This document shows positions 45,993 to 54,184 of a DNA stretch of 64,000 nucleotides, one piece after another. Under the pieces are notes generated by a model. It had not been told where the DNA came from. It ran no database searches and saw nothing but the letters and a program-made list of their open reading frames with translations. The DNA is from Candidatus Tumulicola sp. (GTDB lineage Bacteria > Vulcanimicrobiota > Vulcanimicrobiia > Eremiobacterales > Eremiobacteraceae), in the NCBI GenBank assembly GCA_035601835.1, contig DATNNM010000015.1, positions 1-64,000 of the forward strand, read 5' to 3'. How positions within the stretch are numbered: position 1 is the stretch's first letter; every line of letters begins with the position of its first letter. Made by a program: the position numbers and the translations under genes.

Positions 45993-47258
45993 TCACCGTT
46001 TCCGGGACGTGAGTCCACCCTGCATGACCACCGGCAACGTTTCTGGCATTCGAACCGCTACAACGACGCCCGACGCAAATGTAATCGCAGCGATGACTAT
46101 GACCGCGGCCGACATTCCCGCGAGGTCGGCGATGACGCCCGAAAGCAGTGCGCCGACCGCATAACCCGAATCACGCCATAAGCGATACACGCCCACCGCT
46201 GAGGCGCGCCAGTTCGGATGCGCGACGTCGCTGATCGCAGCGAGGAGCGTCGGATACACCATCGCCGTGCCGACACCGAGCAGAACCGCCGCCGCGAGCC
46301 AGAGAGAATACGAAGTATAAAGTACGAACCCGGCGATGGCGGCGGCCTGTAGCATCATGCCTCCTGCGATGAGCCATTTGCGGCCTACCGCGTCTGAGAG
46401 CGCGCCGGTGAACAATTGCAGCAGCCCCCAGACAAACGGGTAGGCAGCGACCACGATGCCGACCTGCACTAGCGAGAACCCGGCCGCTGACGCCATCAAC
46501 GGCAGCAAGCCCCATACCATCCCGTCATTGAGGTTGTTTACGAGACCGGCCTGGCTGCACGACGACAGCGCTGGGTCTCGAAAAGATGTGCGCACAACGA
46601 TTTCCGAAAAGCGCGGCTGCTCGTCCGCGGCGTGCGCTCTAGCCTCCTGCTTTGCGTATCCATGGGTTTCCCGAACGAACAAGAGCGATAGCAAAAAGCC
46701 AGCGATAGCGATGCCGATGCCGACCTCAAACGGCAGTGGTCTGAGCCCATGAGCCTGCGCGAGCAGCGCGGTCACATACGCTGTCACGGCGACCGCCATG
46801 TATCCGGCCGCCTCATTGAATCCCATCGCCAGTCCGCGCGACTTTGGCCCAACAAGATCGATCTTCATAATGACCGTCATCGACCAGCACAAGCCTTGAT
46901 TGATGCCAAGCAGGACGTTAGCGAAGATGACCCAGCCCCACGTCGGCGCGAACAGCAGGATGACCGGGACGAATAGGCCCACGGTCCAACCGATAACCAA
47001 GAGGCGTCGCCGCCCGACGCGATCGCTTAGTCTTGAGCCCGCGAGGTTCGTGAGCGCCTTGACAATGCCAAAACTGACGATGAACGACAAGACGACCGTC
47101 GTCGATGCGATGTGGAACACGTCGCGACCGAGCAACGGCAAGATCGAGCGTTCGAGACCCACCATGCCACCGACGAACGCGTTGATGAGGACGAGGAGTA
47201 AGAATTGCGCGAGGTTCTCACGCAGTCCCAGTCGTGGACCGCCGGCGCCTGTGACCAT
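45993..47258 (-). CDS. MFS transporter
   Basis: 421 codons from ATG 47258 (MVTGAGGPRLGLRENLAQFL). About 12 hydrophobic segments are visible. The MFS signature between helices 2 and 3 reads LAGSRLSDRVGRRRLLV, and the second half has a matching GALSDAVGRKWLIAG. Substrate unknown. It lies 7 bp after the MBL-fold gene and in the same direction, so it is probably part of the ArsR-rhodanese operon and may export a sulfur or metalloid compound (inference). Confidence 0.88.
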   Translation of the reverse strand: MVTGAGGPRLGLRENLAQFLLLVLINAFVGGMVGLERSILPLLGRDVFHIASTTVVLSFIVSFGIVKALTNLAGSRLSDRVGRRRLLVIGWTVGLFVPVILLFAPTWGWVIFANVLLGINQGLCWSMTVIMKIDLVGPKSRGLAMGFNEAAGYMAVAVTAYVTALLAQAHGLRPLPFEVGIGIAIAGFLLSLLFVRETHGYAKQEARAHAADEQPRFSEIVVRTSFRDPALSSCSQAGLVNNLNDGMVWGLLPLMASAAGFSLVQVGIVVAAYPFVWGLLQLFTGALSDAVGRKWLIAGGMMLQAAAIAGFVLYTSYSLWLAAAVLLGVGTAMVYPTLLAAISDVAHPNWRASAVGVYRLWRDSGYAVGALLSGVIADLAGMSAAVIVIAAITFASGVVVAVRMPETLPVVMQGGLTSRKR

Positions 47259-47265
47259 GATTCGT

Positions 47266-47997
47266 CTAGGCAGAGCCCCGACCGAGGTTAGCTTCGACGA
47301 TGTGCTCGAACTCAGGTGGCTTCGGAGGCAGCGAGTCCATGACGAAGCGTCGGAACTCGTCGAGCGAACGAGGCGCAAACGCGGTGTTGTGGCGCCGCTC
47401 GAAGCCGAGCGTGCTCGATGGTTTGCCACTCAGCGCGCGGCCGCACACCGAGCCTGAAAAATGTGCTGGAAACACTTCGATATCGTCAGCCAACGGCGCG
47501 AGGCGTTGGTGCAGCGAGTCGTAGATCGCATCGGCATCGCGCTCGGGACTCAAATCCGGACGGCCCGCATCCCCGACGAGCAACGTGTCGCCGGTCAAGA
47601 CGAACCACGGTTCGTCGCCTCGTGTCCGGTCGATCACCGCGAGGCAGACGCTGTCGGGCGTGTGACCAGGCGTATGGAGCACGCGTATCGCGACGTTGCC
47701 GAGGTCGAGCACTTCTCCGTCTTTTATTCGCCGAAATCCGAACAGCGCCGGCGCGCTCTCGTGGAGGCAGTACTCGGATCCCAGCGCCGCCGCGAGCGAA
47801 CGACCTCCGGAAATGTGGTCAGCGTGCACGTGGGTGTCGATCACGTAGAGAATCTTGAGCCCGAGCGACTTGGCGATCGCACGATAGGTGTCGAGGTCAG
47901 CGCGCGCGTCAACGACGGCGCCGATGCCGCGACTCCCTCAGCCGAAGACGTAGGACGCGCACGCCTTATCCTGATGCAGTATTTGCCGAAAGAGCAC
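47266..47997 (-). CDS. MBL-fold metallo-hydrolase with in-frame UGA at codon 20 (candidate selenoprotein)
   Basis: GTG at 47997 has GGGAG 8 bases upstream (48002-48010). Codons 1-19 read MLFRQILHQDKACASYVFG, then codon 20 is TGA (47938-47940), then GSRGIGAVVDARADLDTYRA continues without a frameshift into the zinc motif DTHVHADHISGG. Family homologues as I remember them carry Cys after YxFG, so TGA sits at a usual Cys position. Later motifs: LHTPGHTPDSVCLAV, FVLTGDTLLVGDAGRPDL, FPAHFSGSVCG, STLGFERRHN. The protein belongs to the persulfide-dioxygenase/thiol hydrolase-like group. Alternatives: a nonsense mutation, with a truncated product beginning at the GTG before IDTHVHADH (47844). Confidence 0.7.
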
Positions 47998-48021
47998 AGC
48001 GTTGACTCCCTTACTAGCGGT

Positions 48022-48708
48022 TCACGATGCGGTCGCCCTGTGCTTTGACCTTTCGACCGGTAGACCGGCGGCGTGCCACTCCAGCACGCCGTCGTCCAAG
48101 CGCATTGCTTTGAACCCGCGCCTGCGCAAAAACTCCACGGCTGCGTGCGAGAGCACGCAGTATGGCCCTCGGCAATACGCGACGATCTGCTTGCTGCGCG
48201 GAAGTGTTCCGAGTCGCTGCTTCAATTCAGAAAGTGGCAGCGAACGAGCATGCGGTAAATGCCCCATTGCGTATTCATCCGTGGGCCGAACGTCCAGCAC
48301 CACGACATCCCCGCTCCGCGCCTTTGCCAAGAGCGTCCGCCGGTCGACTGGATGCATGCGCTCAGGCTCCGCGAAATAGGATTGAACGACTTCCTTAATC
48401 TCGGTAAGTCGACGCTCAGCTAAAGACCGAAGCGAGAGCCAAAACGACCCGACGGCCTCATCCGCTAGCCGGTAGTGAACGTATTTTCCGTCCCGTCGCG
48501 AGTCAAGCAACCGCGCCGTGCGCAGAACTTTGATATGAGCGCTCGCGTTCTTGATGTCGATGCGAGCGTGCTCCGCCAGTTCTTCGACGGTCTTTTCCCC
48601 TTGACACAGCAAATCAAGAATCTCAAGCCTACGGGGACTTGCAACCGCCTTGCCGATTCGAGCGAAGTGTTGATAGATCTGATCTTTGAAATCTGCGGCT
48701 TTGTCCAT
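48022..48708 (-). CDS. ArsR/SmtB-family regulator fused to a rhodanese domain
   Basis: 228 codons from ATG 48708, with GAGGGA 3 bases upstream. Residues 1-100: ArsR winged helix (PRRLEILDLLCQGEKTVEELAEHARIDIKNASAHIKVLRTARLLDSRRDGKYVHYRL). Residues 120-220: rhodanese with D-x-R-x-x-x-E-Y-x-x-G-H-L (LDVRPTDEYAMGHLPHA) and active-site loop AYCRGPYCVLS, whose first Cys is catalytic. It heads an operon with the MBL-fold protein (25 bp) and the MFS transporter. Such regulators probably sense persulfide or metal thiols; here the sensing Cys may be in the rhodanese loop. An AT-rich operator-like palindrome precedes it. Confidence 0.88.
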   Translation of the reverse strand: MDKAADFKDQIYQHFARIGKAVASPRRLEILDLLCQGEKTVEELAEHARIDIKNASAHIKVLRTARLLDSRRDGKYVHYRLADEAVGSFWLSLRSLAERRLTEIKEVVQSYFAEPERMHPVDRRTLLAKARSGDVVVLDVRPTDEYAMGHLPHARSLPLSELKQRLGTLPRSKQIVAYCRGPYCVLSHAAVEFLRRRGFKAMRLDDGVLEWHAAGLPVERSKHRATAS

Positions 48709-48781: not shown

Positions 48782-49300
48782 CTAGCGCATCATCCCGCGC
48801 ATCATGGCAGGCATGCCGTCGCGCACAAACCCGCTCACCTCGTTCGCGTGGCGCAGAATGGCGGCAAGCACGACGGGGTCGCTGCTCGTTTCGGTGACGG
48901 AAACGCCCTTCGGTGTCAGTGCCAAATGCCGCTGGTATTTCTTCGCGTTGCGGAACATGATCGGAAGACTGTCGCTCATGCACCGCACTTCTTGTCCGTC
49001 GTTGACGTGCTTGTACATGCTCGGCACGTGCTCGTGCAAAAGTTTCACGAGATGCAGGTTGTCCGATTCAGTCGTAGTCCGGATGCCATTCGGTAAATGC
49101 TCGACTTTGCGGCGCAGCTCCGTGTGATGGTCGAACATCTCCATATAGGTGCTCATGTCGTGCTGCGACACGTTCATCATGCCGCCCATCATGCCGCCAT
49201 CCATCATGCCCTTTCTTACTTGGCTGACGCACGCAGCGATGAGCAGCGGGACCCCGCTCGCTATCGAAACGAGGATCGCGAAGAAGCCACCGCGTTTCAT
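48782..49300 (-). CDS. Met-rich secreted lipoprotein at the end of the efflux operon
   Basis: 172 codons from ATG 49300 (MKRGGFFAILVSIASGVPLL). Lipobox LIAAC near residue 24. The mature part starts with Met-rich segments (KGMMDGGMMGGMMNVSQHDMSTYMEMFDHHTELRRK) and ends AMMRGMMR; His residues (HDM, DHH, LHEH) are interspersed. Such Met/His stretches bind Cu(I) or Ag(I) in periplasmic proteins. It is the last gene of the RND operon and may be a metal chaperone or sink. It starts 1 bp from the end of the FixH-like gene. Confidence 0.75.
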   Translation of the reverse strand: MKRGGFFAILVSIASGVPLLIAACVSQVRKGMMDGGMMGGMMNVSQHDMSTYMEMFDHHTELRRKVEHLPNGIRTTTESDNLHLVKLLHEHVPSMYKHVNDGQEVRCMSDSLPIMFRNAKKYQRHLALTPKGVSVTETSSDPVVLAAILRHANEVSGFVRDGMPAMMRGMMR

Positions 49301-49301
49301 T

Positions 49302-49703
49302 CTAGTGAACGTCCGCTTTGAACTCGGCCTTGCTCGCGTTGGCACCTTGCGTCGCCGTCAGGTCGAAGACCCAGTTCGTTTTGTAGTTCAAGTTGGCGAC
49401 GGCTGAATAGGTGCCATCCCCGTTGTCCTGAAACGTCATTGAAGGGCCGGTCATCCCCATGCTGGGCATGTGAGCAGCTGACTTTACGACGGCGCCGGTC
49501 ACTGCCTTCCCACCCGAATCTTTGAGCGCAATCACGATCGTTTCATTCCCTTGCTTTGGAGGCGTCGGATCAAACGAAAGCGACATCGTGTACTCTCCCG
49601 ACGCAGAAACGGGAGACATCCCAGCCGGTGCCTCCGCGGTATGGCTGGAGCTGCACGCCGTCACAAAAATCGTCATGAGACCGGCGACGAGAATATTCCT
49701 CAT
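49302..49703 (-). CDS. FixH/YtkA-like lipoprotein
   Basis: 133 codons from ATG 49703 (MRNILVAGLMTIFVTACSSS). Lipobox VTAC near 17. The mature domain is beta-rich: YTMSLSFDPTPPKQGNETIVIALKDSGGKAVTGAVVKSAAHMPSMGMTGPSMTFQDNGDGTYSAVANL, which matches the FixH/YtkA-like pattern with a Met-rich loop (HMPSMGM). The same kind of domain forms the N-terminus of the adaptor encoded upstream. Likely a copper-binding periplasmic partner of the efflux pump. Confidence 0.78.
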   Translation of the reverse strand: MRNILVAGLMTIFVTACSSSHTAEAPAGMSPVSASGEYTMSLSFDPTPPKQGNETIVIALKDSGGKAVTGAVVKSAAHMPSMGMTGPSMTFQDNGDGTYSAVANLNYKTNWVFDLTATQGANASKAEFKADVH

Positions 49704-49713
49704 GTGTCACTCC

Positions 49714-51000
49714 TTACTGCTGGAATGGATCGCCCGCGGCATGATGCACGCCGGCGATCGCCACGTCGTAGCGTTCAAGGGCTTGAAGCAGGGTGATGCG
49801 GGCGGCGGCAGCCGTCGAGAGCGCATCCAGTACCTCGAGCTCGATGGCCTTGCCAGCTTTCTGCCGCAAACTCGCGACGCGAAGATTTTCTAGCGCATCG
49901 TTCGTGGCTGCTCGGGCAGTTTGCAGGTTCTGGCGCGCTGCGCTGAGCTCGCGCAACGCGTTGGCCACATCGTCTTGCACCATCAACTGCTGGCGCTCGT
50001 AGTCTGCCTGTGCCTTTTCGAGCGCTGCGCTTGCCTGCAGTACCGCTGCGTGGCGCGCGCCGCCTTCGACGATCGGCAACGTGACGGCCACGCCGACCTG
50101 CGAACCTGAAGCACCGAGCGGCGGATTGGAGCTGCCGTTGTAGGTTTGCGCCGTAAGTGCGGCCGTCGGCAGGTATGCGGCTCGCGCTTGGTCCAGACCC
50201 GCGCGCGCAGCATCGATGCGCAGCCGTGCCGCGGCTACCGCCGGCCGTTGGCGTAGCGCTCGTTGACTTGCGGTCGCGAGCGTATCGTTGAAGTCCGGTG
50301 TCGAGAAGCTGTTCGGGAGTTCGAGATTGGACATCATGTCGAAATCCAAGAGCAGTTTCAGGTCGTTGAGCGCCTCATCGCGTTCGGCGGCCGCGTCCTC
50401 TGCCATCTGTTGCGCGCCGGCCAGAGCGGCCCGCGCGCGTGCCAGCTCGTAGCGCGGCGTCTTGCCTGCCTGCACGCGAAGCTCGACCAGCCGGACGTTA
50501 GCTTCTTGATCGCCGACGCTGACTTGTTGCGCCAGCGCCACGCCCGCGCCGAGCACCGCTCGGTCATACGCCTTCACGGCTGCGAACGCCGCGTCGTCGA
50601 CAACGCCGCCGAGATCCGCCGACGAAGCGTCGGCCAAACGTCGTCCCATGCGCACGCCGGAATAGCCGGCGACGTTGATGATCGGCACGCTTGCCGTCGC
50701 TGACGCATACGTTTGCGTCGCCTCGGGCATGCCGAGCTGGGGAAGGTGCGCGTTGATCTGATTGCCCGAAAGCGATACCTGAGGCAACACGGCGCTCCGC
50801 TGCCCTAGGGCTTGACCGCGCGCCGCTGAAGCGTCCGCGCGCGCCATACGCACGTCGAAGCCGGCCGCCGTCGCACGCAGCACAGCCTGCTCGCGCGACA
50901 GCGGACCGTTCCACACTTGCGGTTGCGCAAACGCGGGCTGTGTCAACGCCGCTTGGGCCAGCGCGACGAAGAGGAGCGACGCGAGCAGTGCGTTACGCAT
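49714..51000 (-). CDS. TolC-family outer membrane efflux protein
   Basis: 428 codons from ATG 51000 (MRNALLASLLFVALAQAALT). Signal peptide ending AFA near residue 25. The four long helices with heptad repeats are visible (AGFDVRMARADASAARGQALGQRS; ADASSADLGGVVDDAAFAAVKAYDRAV; AVAAARLRIDAARAGLDQARAAYLPTAAL; ALEKAQADYERQQLMVQDDVANALRELSAARQNLQTARAATNDALENLRVASLRQKAGKAIELEVLDALSTAAAARI). It forms the outer-membrane channel of the RND complex. It overlaps the RND gene end by 8 bp. Confidence 0.9.
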   Translation of the reverse strand: MRNALLASLLFVALAQAALTQPAFAQPQVWNGPLSREQAVLRATAAGFDVRMARADASAARGQALGQRSAVLPQVSLSGNQINAHLPQLGMPEATQTYASATASVPIINVAGYSGVRMGRRLADASSADLGGVVDDAAFAAVKAYDRAVLGAGVALAQQVSVGDQEANVRLVELRVQAGKTPRYELARARAALAGAQQMAEDAAAERDEALNDLKLLLDFDMMSNLELPNSFSTPDFNDTLATASQRALRQRPAVAAARLRIDAARAGLDQARAAYLPTAALTAQTYNGSSNPPLGASGSQVGVAVTLPIVEGGARHAAVLQASAALEKAQADYERQQLMVQDDVANALRELSAARQNLQTARAATNDALENLRVASLRQKAGKAIELEVLDALSTAAAARITLLQALERYDVAIAGVHHAAGDPFQQ

Positions 51001-54000
51001 GAGAGGTTTCCTCGGCAGGCCGAGCACCGCGCCGACGCCACCACTCCCCAATGTCGTCAAACGTCGCATGGAGCACGGGCACGATGAACAGCGTCAGCAG
51101 GGTGGAGATACCGAATCCACCGATGATCACCGTGGCGAGCGGCGAGAACGCATCCACGCCGGTCTTGGGGAAAAACGCCACGGGCGCGAGCACGATGATG
51201 CTGACGATCGTGGTCATCATGATCGGGCGCAAACGGATCGGGCCGGCTTCCAGGATCGCCGCATCACGTGGCATGCCTTCCGCACGCTTACGCAGGATGA
51301 GGTCGAGCAACAGAATGGCGTTGCTGACCGCCATGCCGTTAGCGACCACGATGCCCAGGATCGATACCGTGGAGAAGTTTTGGTGCGCGAGCAAGAGGGC
51401 GCCGAAGACGCCGAGCAACTGCAGGGGAATCGCCAGCAGCATCTCCAGGGGCAGGACGAACGATCGGAACTGCGCGACGAGCAACAGGTAGATGAAGACC
51501 ACAGCGATCGCCATGGCGCCGATCAGGCGTTGGAAGCTGCTCATCATCTCCGTCATGTCGCCGCGCATCTCGATGCCGTAACCGACCGGGAACGGCACCT
51601 GCGCGCTCGCTCCCATGACGACGTCCGAATCGAGCGCCATCTCGCCGCGCCCGCCCTTGCGGTAGTAACCAAGCACGGACACCGTGCGACGCAGCCCATC
51701 GTGTTCGATAGCAGTCGGTGCCACGGCACGCACGATGCGCGCCAAAGCCATCAGCGGCACGACTTGCCCATCTTTGCCCACGATCTGAACTCGCGATAGG
51801 TCGCCCGACGTCGCTCTGTCCTGATCGGAATAGCGGACGAGAATGGTGTCGTGACGCAGGTTCTCCGGGTTGAAATACTCCGTGGTGAGGCCTCCGTGGG
51901 TAGCGAAGTAGGCCTGCATGAGCACGTCGCTCGGCATAAGTCCGATCTGCGATGCGCGCGTGCGGTCGACGATGACGTTTTCTTCGGGTTGCGCAAGGGT
52001 CGTCGAGGCTGCGGTTTGCACGAGGCCGGGAACCTTGCGGGCGATAGCGGTGACCTGGTCGGCAAGCCGATGCAACTCGACTTGATCGGGGCCGCTCAGC
52101 AGTAGCTCCACGGGAGCGTTCGTGGTGGACATGACGTCGCTGCCCATCGGATTGAGCGCAAGCCGCCGGATGCCGGGAATCGTCGTCATGGCCTGCTGGT
52201 ACGCGGCGTCCATGATCTGCCAAATGGTGCGCTTGCGGTCTTCCTTGGGAACAAACGTGATCGTGTACGATGCGGCGTTGACGCCGTTCATCGCACCCCC
52301 GGTGAAGTACGAGCCGGCCGGCTCCTCGCCGATTTCCGCTGAAACTCGCTGCACCTCTGGCTGCGCGAGCAGAATGCGTTCGAACGCGTTGGCCTTCGCG
52401 TTCGTCGCGGCAAAGGACGAGCCGGGATCAGCTTCGAGGTAGGCGCTGCCCTGGCCGGTATCGGCAAGCGGCATCATCTCGCTGCCGATGAACGGAAGCA
52501 ACGACACCGCGACGTACGTCAAAATGGCGGCGCCGCCCAGCAGCGTGAGCCGGTTGCCCAGGCTCCAACGCAGGCCGCGGCGATATGCATCGTCGATCTT
52601 CGCGAGCACCCCGCGTGCAGGTCCAAGCCAGCGCGTGACCGTTTCGTCGAGGCGCGTGCGCCACGCGAACGGTTTTTGTTCCCCGCCTGTGAACAGATAG
52701 GCCGCCAGCAGCGGCGTCAGCGTCACCGATACGACAAGCGACGCCAGCAGCGCGAAGACGATCGGCCATACCAACCCGACGAACATGATCTGCGTGATGC
52801 CGCCGCTCGTGAGCAGCGGGATCACCGCAAGCATCATCACGCCCGTGGCAGCCGCAACCGGCAAGATCACTTCGAGCGTGCCGTCAACGGCGGCTTTACG
52901 CGGCGGCTTACCCATGGCAAGATGGCGATGAATGGCATGAATGACGACGATCGAGCCATCGACGAGCGGACCGACCGCCAGCAGCAGCCCGAGCAGCGTC
53001 GAGCTGTTGATAGACAGGCGCATCGGCGTGAATAGCAGGATGGCTATGCCCAAGCATGTCGGAATCGCGGCCACGACGATCAGCGTTGCGCTCACATCTT
53101 CGAGGAAGAGCAAAAGCACGAACCCGGCCAAGATGACGCTGACGAACAGCTCCTCGAACATGTTGGTCTTGAGCGCCTCGACGAACCGGGCGTTGTCGTA
53201 GGCCGGCGTGAATTTCAAGCCCGGGTGATCGCGCTGGATCTGCGCCACCTTGTCCATGACCGCAGCGATGATCTGGGGCGAGCCGGCGTCCGGGTTTTCG
53301 ATGACCGAAATCTCGACGGCGTCCTTACCGTTGAGCCGGTATGCCGAGCGCTGCTCGCCTGCGCCGTCTACGACCGTCGCGACGTCGCGCAAGAACACGG
53401 TGCGGCCAGCCACGGTCGTGAGCGGGTAGTCGAGCATTTCGCCCACCGACTTGACCCGCAGGTCCCCGCGCACAAGCGCTTCGCTCGCAGCGCTCGTCAG
53501 TGTGCCGCCGGAGCGGCTGACGTTTTGTGCGTCGAGTGCGCCGCTCACATCAGGAAGCGCTAGGCCGTACGAAGCCAGTTTGGTGCGATCGACCACGACC
53601 TGAAGCTGGCGCTGGCGCCCGCCAAACACTTGGACGGTTTGCACCCCGGAGATCGCCTTGAGCGCGCTGACGACGTTGTTCGCAGCGAACTGCCGCAACG
53701 CGACCGGACTCCAGCCGACACCCGTGAGCGCGAGCTGCAGCACCGGTGTGTTGAGCGGGTCCGCTGGAACGACCCATGACGGCTTGAGATTCGCGCGGTC
53801 GTACGGCAGATCGGCTTGCGCTTGCTGGACGAGCTGCTGCACGTCCACCAGCGCGCGCTGCATCGTGTATCCATAGGGGAACTGCAGCGTGACGATCGAT
53901 AGGTCTTGCTGCGAAACAGACCGGACGAATCGCACGCCGCTCAAGTCGGTCATGCGGTTTTCGATGGGCTTGGTGAAATACGTCTCGACGTCTTGCGGAG

Positions 54001-54184
54001 CGTAGCCCGGCACCATGGTGATCACGCTGACGAGCGGACTCTCGACGTATGGCATCATCCGGGTCGGCAGGATGAAAAGGGCCGCGCCGATCGCGGCGAA
54101 GACCAGAGCAAGGTAGACGACGATGACGGCGTGCGGGTGGCGCAAGGCCCAACCCGGCACGCCGCCGCGCTGGTTTTCGATCAC
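50993..54184 (-). CDS. RND-family efflux permease (CusA/AcrB superfamily)
   Basis: 1063 codons from GTG 54184, which overlaps the adaptor stop (GTGA). The inner-membrane pump of a tripartite system. N-terminal helix (HPHAVIVVYLALVFAAIGAALFILP), porter region starting VITMVPGYAPQDVETYFTKPIENRMTDLSGV, then the transmembrane block VSATLIVVAAIPTCLGIAILLFT with SLTLLGLLLAVGPLVDGSIVVIHAIHRHL near residue 400 (the proton-relay Asp lies in GPLVD). The Met-rich context and the FixH domains suggest copper or silver export, but the heavy-metal subfamily cannot be settled by eye. Confidence 0.92.
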   Translation of the reverse strand: MIENQRGGVPGWALRHPHAVIVVYLALVFAAIGAALFILPTRMMPYVESPLVSVITMVPGYAPQDVETYFTKPIENRMTDLSGVRFVRSVSQQDLSIVTLQFPYGYTMQRALVDVQQLVQQAQADLPYDRANLKPSWVVPADPLNTPVLQLALTGVGWSPVALRQFAANNVVSALKAISGVQTVQVFGGRQRQLQVVVDRTKLASYGLALPDVSGALDAQNVSRSGGTLTSAASEALVRGDLRVKSVGEMLDYPLTTVAGRTVFLRDVATVVDGAGEQRSAYRLNGKDAVEISVIENPDAGSPQIIAAVMDKVAQIQRDHPGLKFTPAYDNARFVEALKTNMFEELFVSVILAGFVLLLFLEDVSATLIVVAAIPTCLGIAILLFTPMRLSINSSTLLGLLLAVGPLVDGSIVVIHAIHRHLAMGKPPRKAAVDGTLEVILPVAAATGVMMLAVIPLLTSGGITQIMFVGLVWPIVFALLASLVVSVTLTPLLAAYLFTGGEQKPFAWRTRLDETVTRWLGPARGVLAKIDDAYRRGLRWSLGNRLTLLGGAAILTYVAVSLLPFIGSEMMPLADTGQGSAYLEADPGSSFAATNAKANAFERILLAQPEVQRVSAEIGEEPAGSYFTGGAMNGVNAASYTITFVPKEDRKRTIWQIMDAAYQQAMTTIPGIRRLALNPMGSDVMSTTNAPVELLLSGPDQVELHRLADQVTAIARKVPGLVQTAASTTLAQPEENVIVDRTRASQIGLMPSDVLMQAYFATHGGLTTEYFNPENLRHDTILVRYSDQDRATSGDLSRVQIVGKDGQVVPLMALARIVRAVAPTAIEHDGLRRTVSVLGYYRKGGRGEMALDSDVVMGASAQVPFPVGYGIEMRGDMTEMMSSFQRLIGAMAIAVVFIYLLLVAQFRSFVLPLEMLLAIPLQLLGVFGALLLAHQNFSTVSILGIVVANGMAVSNAILLLDLILRKRAEGMPRDAAILEAGPIRLRPIMMTTIVSIIVLAPVAFFPKTGVDAFSPLATVIIGGFGISTLLTLFIVPVLHATFDDIGEWWRRRGARPAEETSHA

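Follow-up and report, generated by a model that had tools for sequence, protein, structure and literature searches.

A putative selenocysteine-containing metallo-beta-lactamase-fold protein within an ArsR-rhodanese and transporter gene module of Candidatus Tumulicola sp.

We have analyzed a 64,000-nucleotide stretch of DNA from Candidatus Tumulicola sp. (contig DATNNM010000015.1, positions 1 to 64,000), referred to here as the window. It carries a gene for a protein of the metallo-beta-lactamase (MBL) fold, at 47266..47997 on the minus strand, whose reading frame contains an internal TGA. Comparative genomics leads us to conclude, with high confidence, that this gene encodes a selenoprotein in which UGA codon 20 would be read as selenocysteine (Sec). 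The first-pass annotation of this DNA had proposed the same reading, and the three kinds of evidence that bear on it, namely cysteine at the same column in homologues, sel genes in the same genome and the same UGA in related genomes, all favor it. The protein apparently belongs to a selenoprotein family so far unlisted among the roughly 120 prokaryotic families, and would be the first with a metallo-beta-lactamase fold.

The in-frame UGA and its conservation

Reading from GTG 47997, the frame gives VLFRQILHQDKACASYVFG, then the TGA at codon 20 (47938..47940, minus strand), then GSRGIGAVVD, and runs through the THVHADH motif to the TAG stop at 47266-47268. The TGA is the sole internal stop in this translation, and when it is counted as a residue the product is a 243-amino-acid protein of the Lactamase_B superfamily (Pfam Lactamase_B, 3.2e-9) with Sec at position 20. 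A GGGAG resembling a ribosome-binding site (48006..48010, minus strand) lies 8 nt ahead of the GTG. The start, the site upstream of it, the position of the TGA and the open frame beyond are therefore as the first-pass annotation had described them.

Homologues were sought in the genome contigs of 84,980 species, each represented by a single genome, and 571 relatives were found. Among the best 80 of these, which lie outside the window's phylum and are 44-54% identical, the UGA column is occupied by cysteine in 80/80, almost always within the motif YxxGC. The cysteine just after Y-x-F-G that the first-pass annotation had expected in homologues is thus borne out by alignment. This Cys20 and a second cysteine, Cys185, are both invariant in a 40-sequence alignment. 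Within the window's phylum (149 genomes searched), orthologues with the UGA, 50-56% identical, were found in 12 further genomes. All 12 have the internal TGA at the identical alignment column and an intact frame otherwise, giving 13/13 with the window. Because these 12 orthologues share the column and the homologues outside the phylum have cysteine there in 80/80, the TGA at codon 20 is more than a chance occurrence. No single-domain Cys form was seen in the 149 genomes of the phylum at E <= 1e-52, and the stop-free matches of that search are the MBL portions of longer open frames.

A different explanation, raised with the original proposal, is that the gene is a pseudogene, with a nonsense mutation that cuts the protein short or leaves a smaller product from GTG 47844. 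We consider this highly improbable. A GTG-started open reading frame does exist at 47844, and the gene is missing from 13 other genomes of the same family. However, a product from 47844 would lack the initial strands of the fold, and no recognisable ribosome site precedes it. Conservation extends over the 19 codons ahead of the UGA, with seven residues invariant in the 13 orthologues (F3, R4, Q5, L7, C13, Y16 and G19), and the synonymous constraint downstream of the UGA, described below, contradicts a decaying gene. The explanation fails because the UGA recurs at one and the same column in 13 divergent orthologues, whose frames are otherwise intact and conserved on both sides of it.

Selenocysteine machinery and the RNA downstream of the UGA

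The genome to which the window belongs has the genes for selenocysteine insertion, selA, selB, selC and selD. On contig C11, selA (533 bits) adjoins selB (312 bits when scored with its neighbors in frame, above the cut-off); a tRNA-Sec with anticodon TCA (UCA) is present; and selD (372 bits; G000:C11:98587-99516, locus L125) is itself a selenoprotein gene, since its one in-frame TGA lies within SCAG-U-ASK, the canonical SelD Sec site. A UGA-containing selD is also present in most other members of the window's family. Among the 12 further genomes that carry the UGA-containing MBL gene, selB is found above the cut-off in 10 and selD in 10, with a TGA in 8 of those 10; a tRNA-Sec match is found in at least 7, in a search whose scoring covered the first 150 candidates per genome. 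Because selB is present in 113 of the 149 genomes of the phylum, its association with the UGA gene across the phylum is uninformative. In our proposal, SelB would bring Sec-tRNA to UGA codon 20, directed by a hairpin directly downstream. As a separate observation, selD genes lacking an in-frame TGA occur in three genomes with the UGA MBL gene (G123, G118 and G120; loci L144, L145 and L150). G118 is a single-contig genome, and G120 has two selD copies, one with the TGA and one without.

The strongest sign of an RNA element comes from the 11 orthologues of one family, f3. Over codons +1 to +15 after the UGA, their pairwise synonymous-codon identity is 0.85 vs 0.47 elsewhere, a value reached in 0/20,000 permutations, and no window starting past codon +16 exceeds 0.58. 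The 11 orthologues agree fully at codons +4, +5, +7 to +12 and +14, and one of these shared codons is CCT, an uncommon proline codon (15% of Pro codons). Two hairpins fit this block, GGCCGC-GCN-GCGGUC with its loop at +16 and, drawn by eye in the aligned sequences, GA(U)CCUC-AGUUC-GAGGUC with its loop at +35; the few variable bases of the conserved block appear to lie mostly in the loops or in a terminal pair. RNAalifold over 13 sequences gives a partial consensus only. This constraint, as read from aligned codons, strongly supports an overlapping selenocysteine insertion sequence (SECIS) element, which would be expected to produce it, as a general reassignment of UGA would not.

The published bacterial SECIS model calls for a stem of 4-16 bp and a loop of 3-9 nt that has a G at one of its first two positions, at a distance of 16-37 nt from the UGA (PMC13188914). 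The hairpin of the window that best fits this model is UCGGC-GCCGUC-GUUGA (47909..47924, minus strand), with its loop starting 19 nt after the UGA (spacing 18 nt), a 5-bp stem and a 6-nt loop that begins with G. The first-pass annotation had instead offered the stem GCGGC/GCCGU with loop AUCGGC. We rejected that hairpin as the SECIS element, since its loop lies 12 nt after the UGA and has no G in the first two positions; UCGGC-GCCGUC-GUUGA is probably the better choice. The selD gene of the same genome has the hairpin CGCGA-GCGUGC-UCGCG with its loop at +20, and this is kept in 5/10 of the UGA selD genes of the family. In the selD genes of several f3 genomes (L140-L148), two successive hairpins are seen, with loops at ~+16 and ~+32, the second with an AGGUC-type loop. 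The similar placement of the selD and MBL-gene hairpins in f3 raises the possibility of a shared two-hairpin type of SECIS.

The conserved stretch could instead owe its constraint to codon usage or to a regulatory RNA unrelated to selenocysteine. Single-sequence fold energies close to those of shuffled sequences are compatible with this, but the constraint sits around the UGA and ends at about codon +15, as known SECIS elements do, and one of the codons it covers is uncommon, so we rate such an origin as very unlikely. We give scarcely any credence to the idea that the UGA is read as cysteine or tryptophan through suppression or a change of code. Cysteine at this column in homologues would agree with it, but the Sec system is complete, selD uses UGA at a known Sec site, and the synonymous constraint downstream fits a SECIS element and not general reassignment.

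Several observations weigh against the selenoprotein assignment. The loop GCCGUC of the window's hairpin begins with G then C, where G or U normally comes after the G, and the 50-nt fold of this single sequence is not more stable than shuffles (z -0.77). For the latter reason folding of the window sequence alone was rejected as proof of a SECIS element, and the RNA evidence rests on the relatives. No match to selB, selD or tRNA-Sec was found in G058 (loci L117/L138), a fragmented, 91%-complete assembly that has the UGA MBL gene; incomplete assembly, contamination or recent loss may explain this. A selB match was likewise not found in G120. Finally, none of the 13 other genomes of the family to which the window belongs contained the UGA gene, whose distribution may thus reflect acquisition by transfer or widespread loss. 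In a tree of 95 proteins, the f3 Sec proteins, the window protein and the protein of G023 form deep, weakly resolved lineages, and a single Sec clade is neither shown nor rejected (approximately unbiased test, p 0.395).

Protein fold and proposed chemistry

The predicted fold of the window protein (pLDDT 89.7) is matched best by PDB entries 3r2u (TM score 0.92) and 3tp9, and then by ETHE1 and bacterial persulfide dioxygenases. Entry 3r2u, titled metallo-beta-lactamase family protein, we take to be Staphylococcus aureus CstB, a persulfide dioxygenase-sulfurtransferase. Sequence and predicted fold together show the window protein, at the level of a model, to be a single-domain MBL-fold enzyme of the CstB/persulfide-dioxygenase branch. 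Its resemblance to CstB extends over the MBL domain (TM 0.92 by query, 31% identity) and, in the profile alignment, includes cysteines at the columns of both Sec20 (YLIGC) and Cys185 (GSPCG), which would be residues 20 and 201 of 3r2u after subtracting 24 extra N-terminal residues, an inferred offset. The two would also have sulfane-sulfur metabolism in common. CstB is multidomain, whereas the window enzyme is single-domain with Sec, and a rhodanese domain is found on the regulator instead. The MBL-rhodanese protein of Alicyclobacillus acidocaldarius (3tp9) likewise shares the fold and both cysteines, but is a two-domain protein in the Cys form. The persulfide dioxygenases of the ETHE1/PDO type (4chl, 4ysb, 5ve3) and Blh of the bigR operon have the same MBL fold with HxHxDH, PGH and GD motifs, and the bigR operon is similar in its ArsR-type regulation. 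Identity to these is lower, and 4ysb has Gly-Asp without cysteine at the Sec column. The window protein scores far under the curated cut-off for Blh (NCBIfam NF040641, a full-length two-domain model; 44.6 bits vs 625), and also under that of the GloB (hydroxyacylglutathione hydrolase) model (59.3 bits vs 200.8).

Persulfide dioxygenases bind their metal through a His-His-Asp set (PMC12856154), and the corresponding motifs are retained in the Sec protein. The presumed ligands are His56, the first histidine of HxHxDH (47830..47832, minus strand), which is invariant and aligned with the PDO motif; His112 of TPGH (47662..47664, minus strand), invariant in the 40-sequence alignment and nearly so in the 13 Sec orthologues; and Asp137 of TGD (47587..47589, minus strand), invariant among the 13. 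These residues would bind one iron. In two Sec orthologues (L116 and L117), the second histidine of HxHxDH (protein column 58) is glutamine, as would be expected if this histidine makes no metal contact in a mono-iron site. The invariant thiol of Cys185 (GSxCG; codon at 47443..47445, minus strand), aligned with the GSPCG cysteine of 3r2u, would form a selenol/thiol pair with Sec20; this pair would take up sulfane sulfur or pass it on, by way of a selenopersulfide or a selenosulfide. We lean slightly towards persulfide-dioxygenase-like chemistry with Sec20 for this enzyme. If so, selenium would be placed in an enzyme type that oxidises persulfides, at the meeting point of sulfur and selenium chemistry.

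Gene module, functional alternatives and novelty

The MBL gene is the middle one of three on the minus strand. Directly upstream is the first gene of the module (48022..48708), for an ArsR-type regulator fused to a rhodanese domain (HTH_5 and Rhodanese), and directly downstream is the third (45993..47258, start ATG 47258), for a major facilitator superfamily (MFS) transporter (MFS_1). Both are conserved neighbors: the MFS gene is found at 12/12 Sec loci and the ArsR-rhodanese gene at 10/12, with one further contig ending before it. The gene order in f3 is unlike that of the window. The same set surrounds most of the Cys homologues. The single-domain MBL proteins of these operons in Pseudomonadota, Myxococcota and Bacillota share both operon partners and 44-55% identity with the window protein, and differ in having Cys for Sec in the best 80 of the 571 relatives. 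We found no characterised member among these Cys forms. Those on plasmids adjoin genes for TusA, DsrE, rhodanese, glutaredoxin, cysteine desulfurase and methyltransferase. This context points to sulfane-sulfur handling, in which the ArsR-rhodanese protein would sense persulfide or a related species and the MFS protein would export a product or toxic substrate.

The main functional rival is resistance to a metalloid or electrophile: the protein would be a selenoprotein that is not a persulfide dioxygenase and acts in thioester hydrolysis or in metalloid or electrophile detoxification, and the compound exported by the MFS protein would be an arsenical or something similar. The ArsR-type regulator, the resistance-nodulation-division (RND) and outer-membrane efflux genes nearby and the weak matches to GloB-type hydrolases all agree with this, as does the occurrence of Cys forms beside methyltransferases and on plasmids from bacteria that tolerate acid and metals. 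Against it stand the rhodanese domain in the regulator, the sulfur-trafficking neighbors in other genomes, and the finding that CstB is the nearest fold, with the YxxGC and GSxCG cysteines common to both. We regard this rival as a serious possibility, albeit the less favored one. In the full proposal, the gene would encode a persulfide dioxygenase or sulfurtransferase that depends on selenium and represents the first selenoprotein family of the MBL fold. Sec20 and Cys185 would act near a non-heme iron through a selenopersulfide or selenosulfide intermediate, within a widely spread three-gene sulfur-stress module. We judge the chances of this proposal, taken as a whole, to be about even.

The protein resembles the 119 known prokaryotic selenoprotein families tabulated in 2026 in that UGA occupies a column of redox Cys, homologues carry Cys there and a bacterial SECIS lies downstream, and several of those families are rhodanese-like or sulfur-related (TsoB, rhodanese forms and Type III SQR; PMC13188914). 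No MBL-fold or persulfide-dioxygenase selenoprotein is listed in that table, and the main text of the deep-Sep paper does not mention an MBL-fold selenoprotein (PMC12013277). Text searches of the literature returned none, and other papers could still describe one. None of the 13 proteins is matched at E <= 1e-10 by a selenoprotein model of NCBIfam 2026, and the window protein scores far under the cut-offs of the NCBIfam models that match it best. Because automatic annotation would call such genes truncated or choose a wrong start, relatives in databases are probably mis-annotated. The Cys-form proteins are widespread in sulfur- and metal-exposed bacteria, and the Sec form marks their Cys20 position as a candidate catalytic or redox residue.

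A defence-system library gave no match. On the same strand, upstream of the module (48782-54184), lies a metal-efflux-like block. It encodes an RND pump and an outer-membrane efflux protein, together with a YtkA-like protein and a Met/His-rich protein of unknown type.
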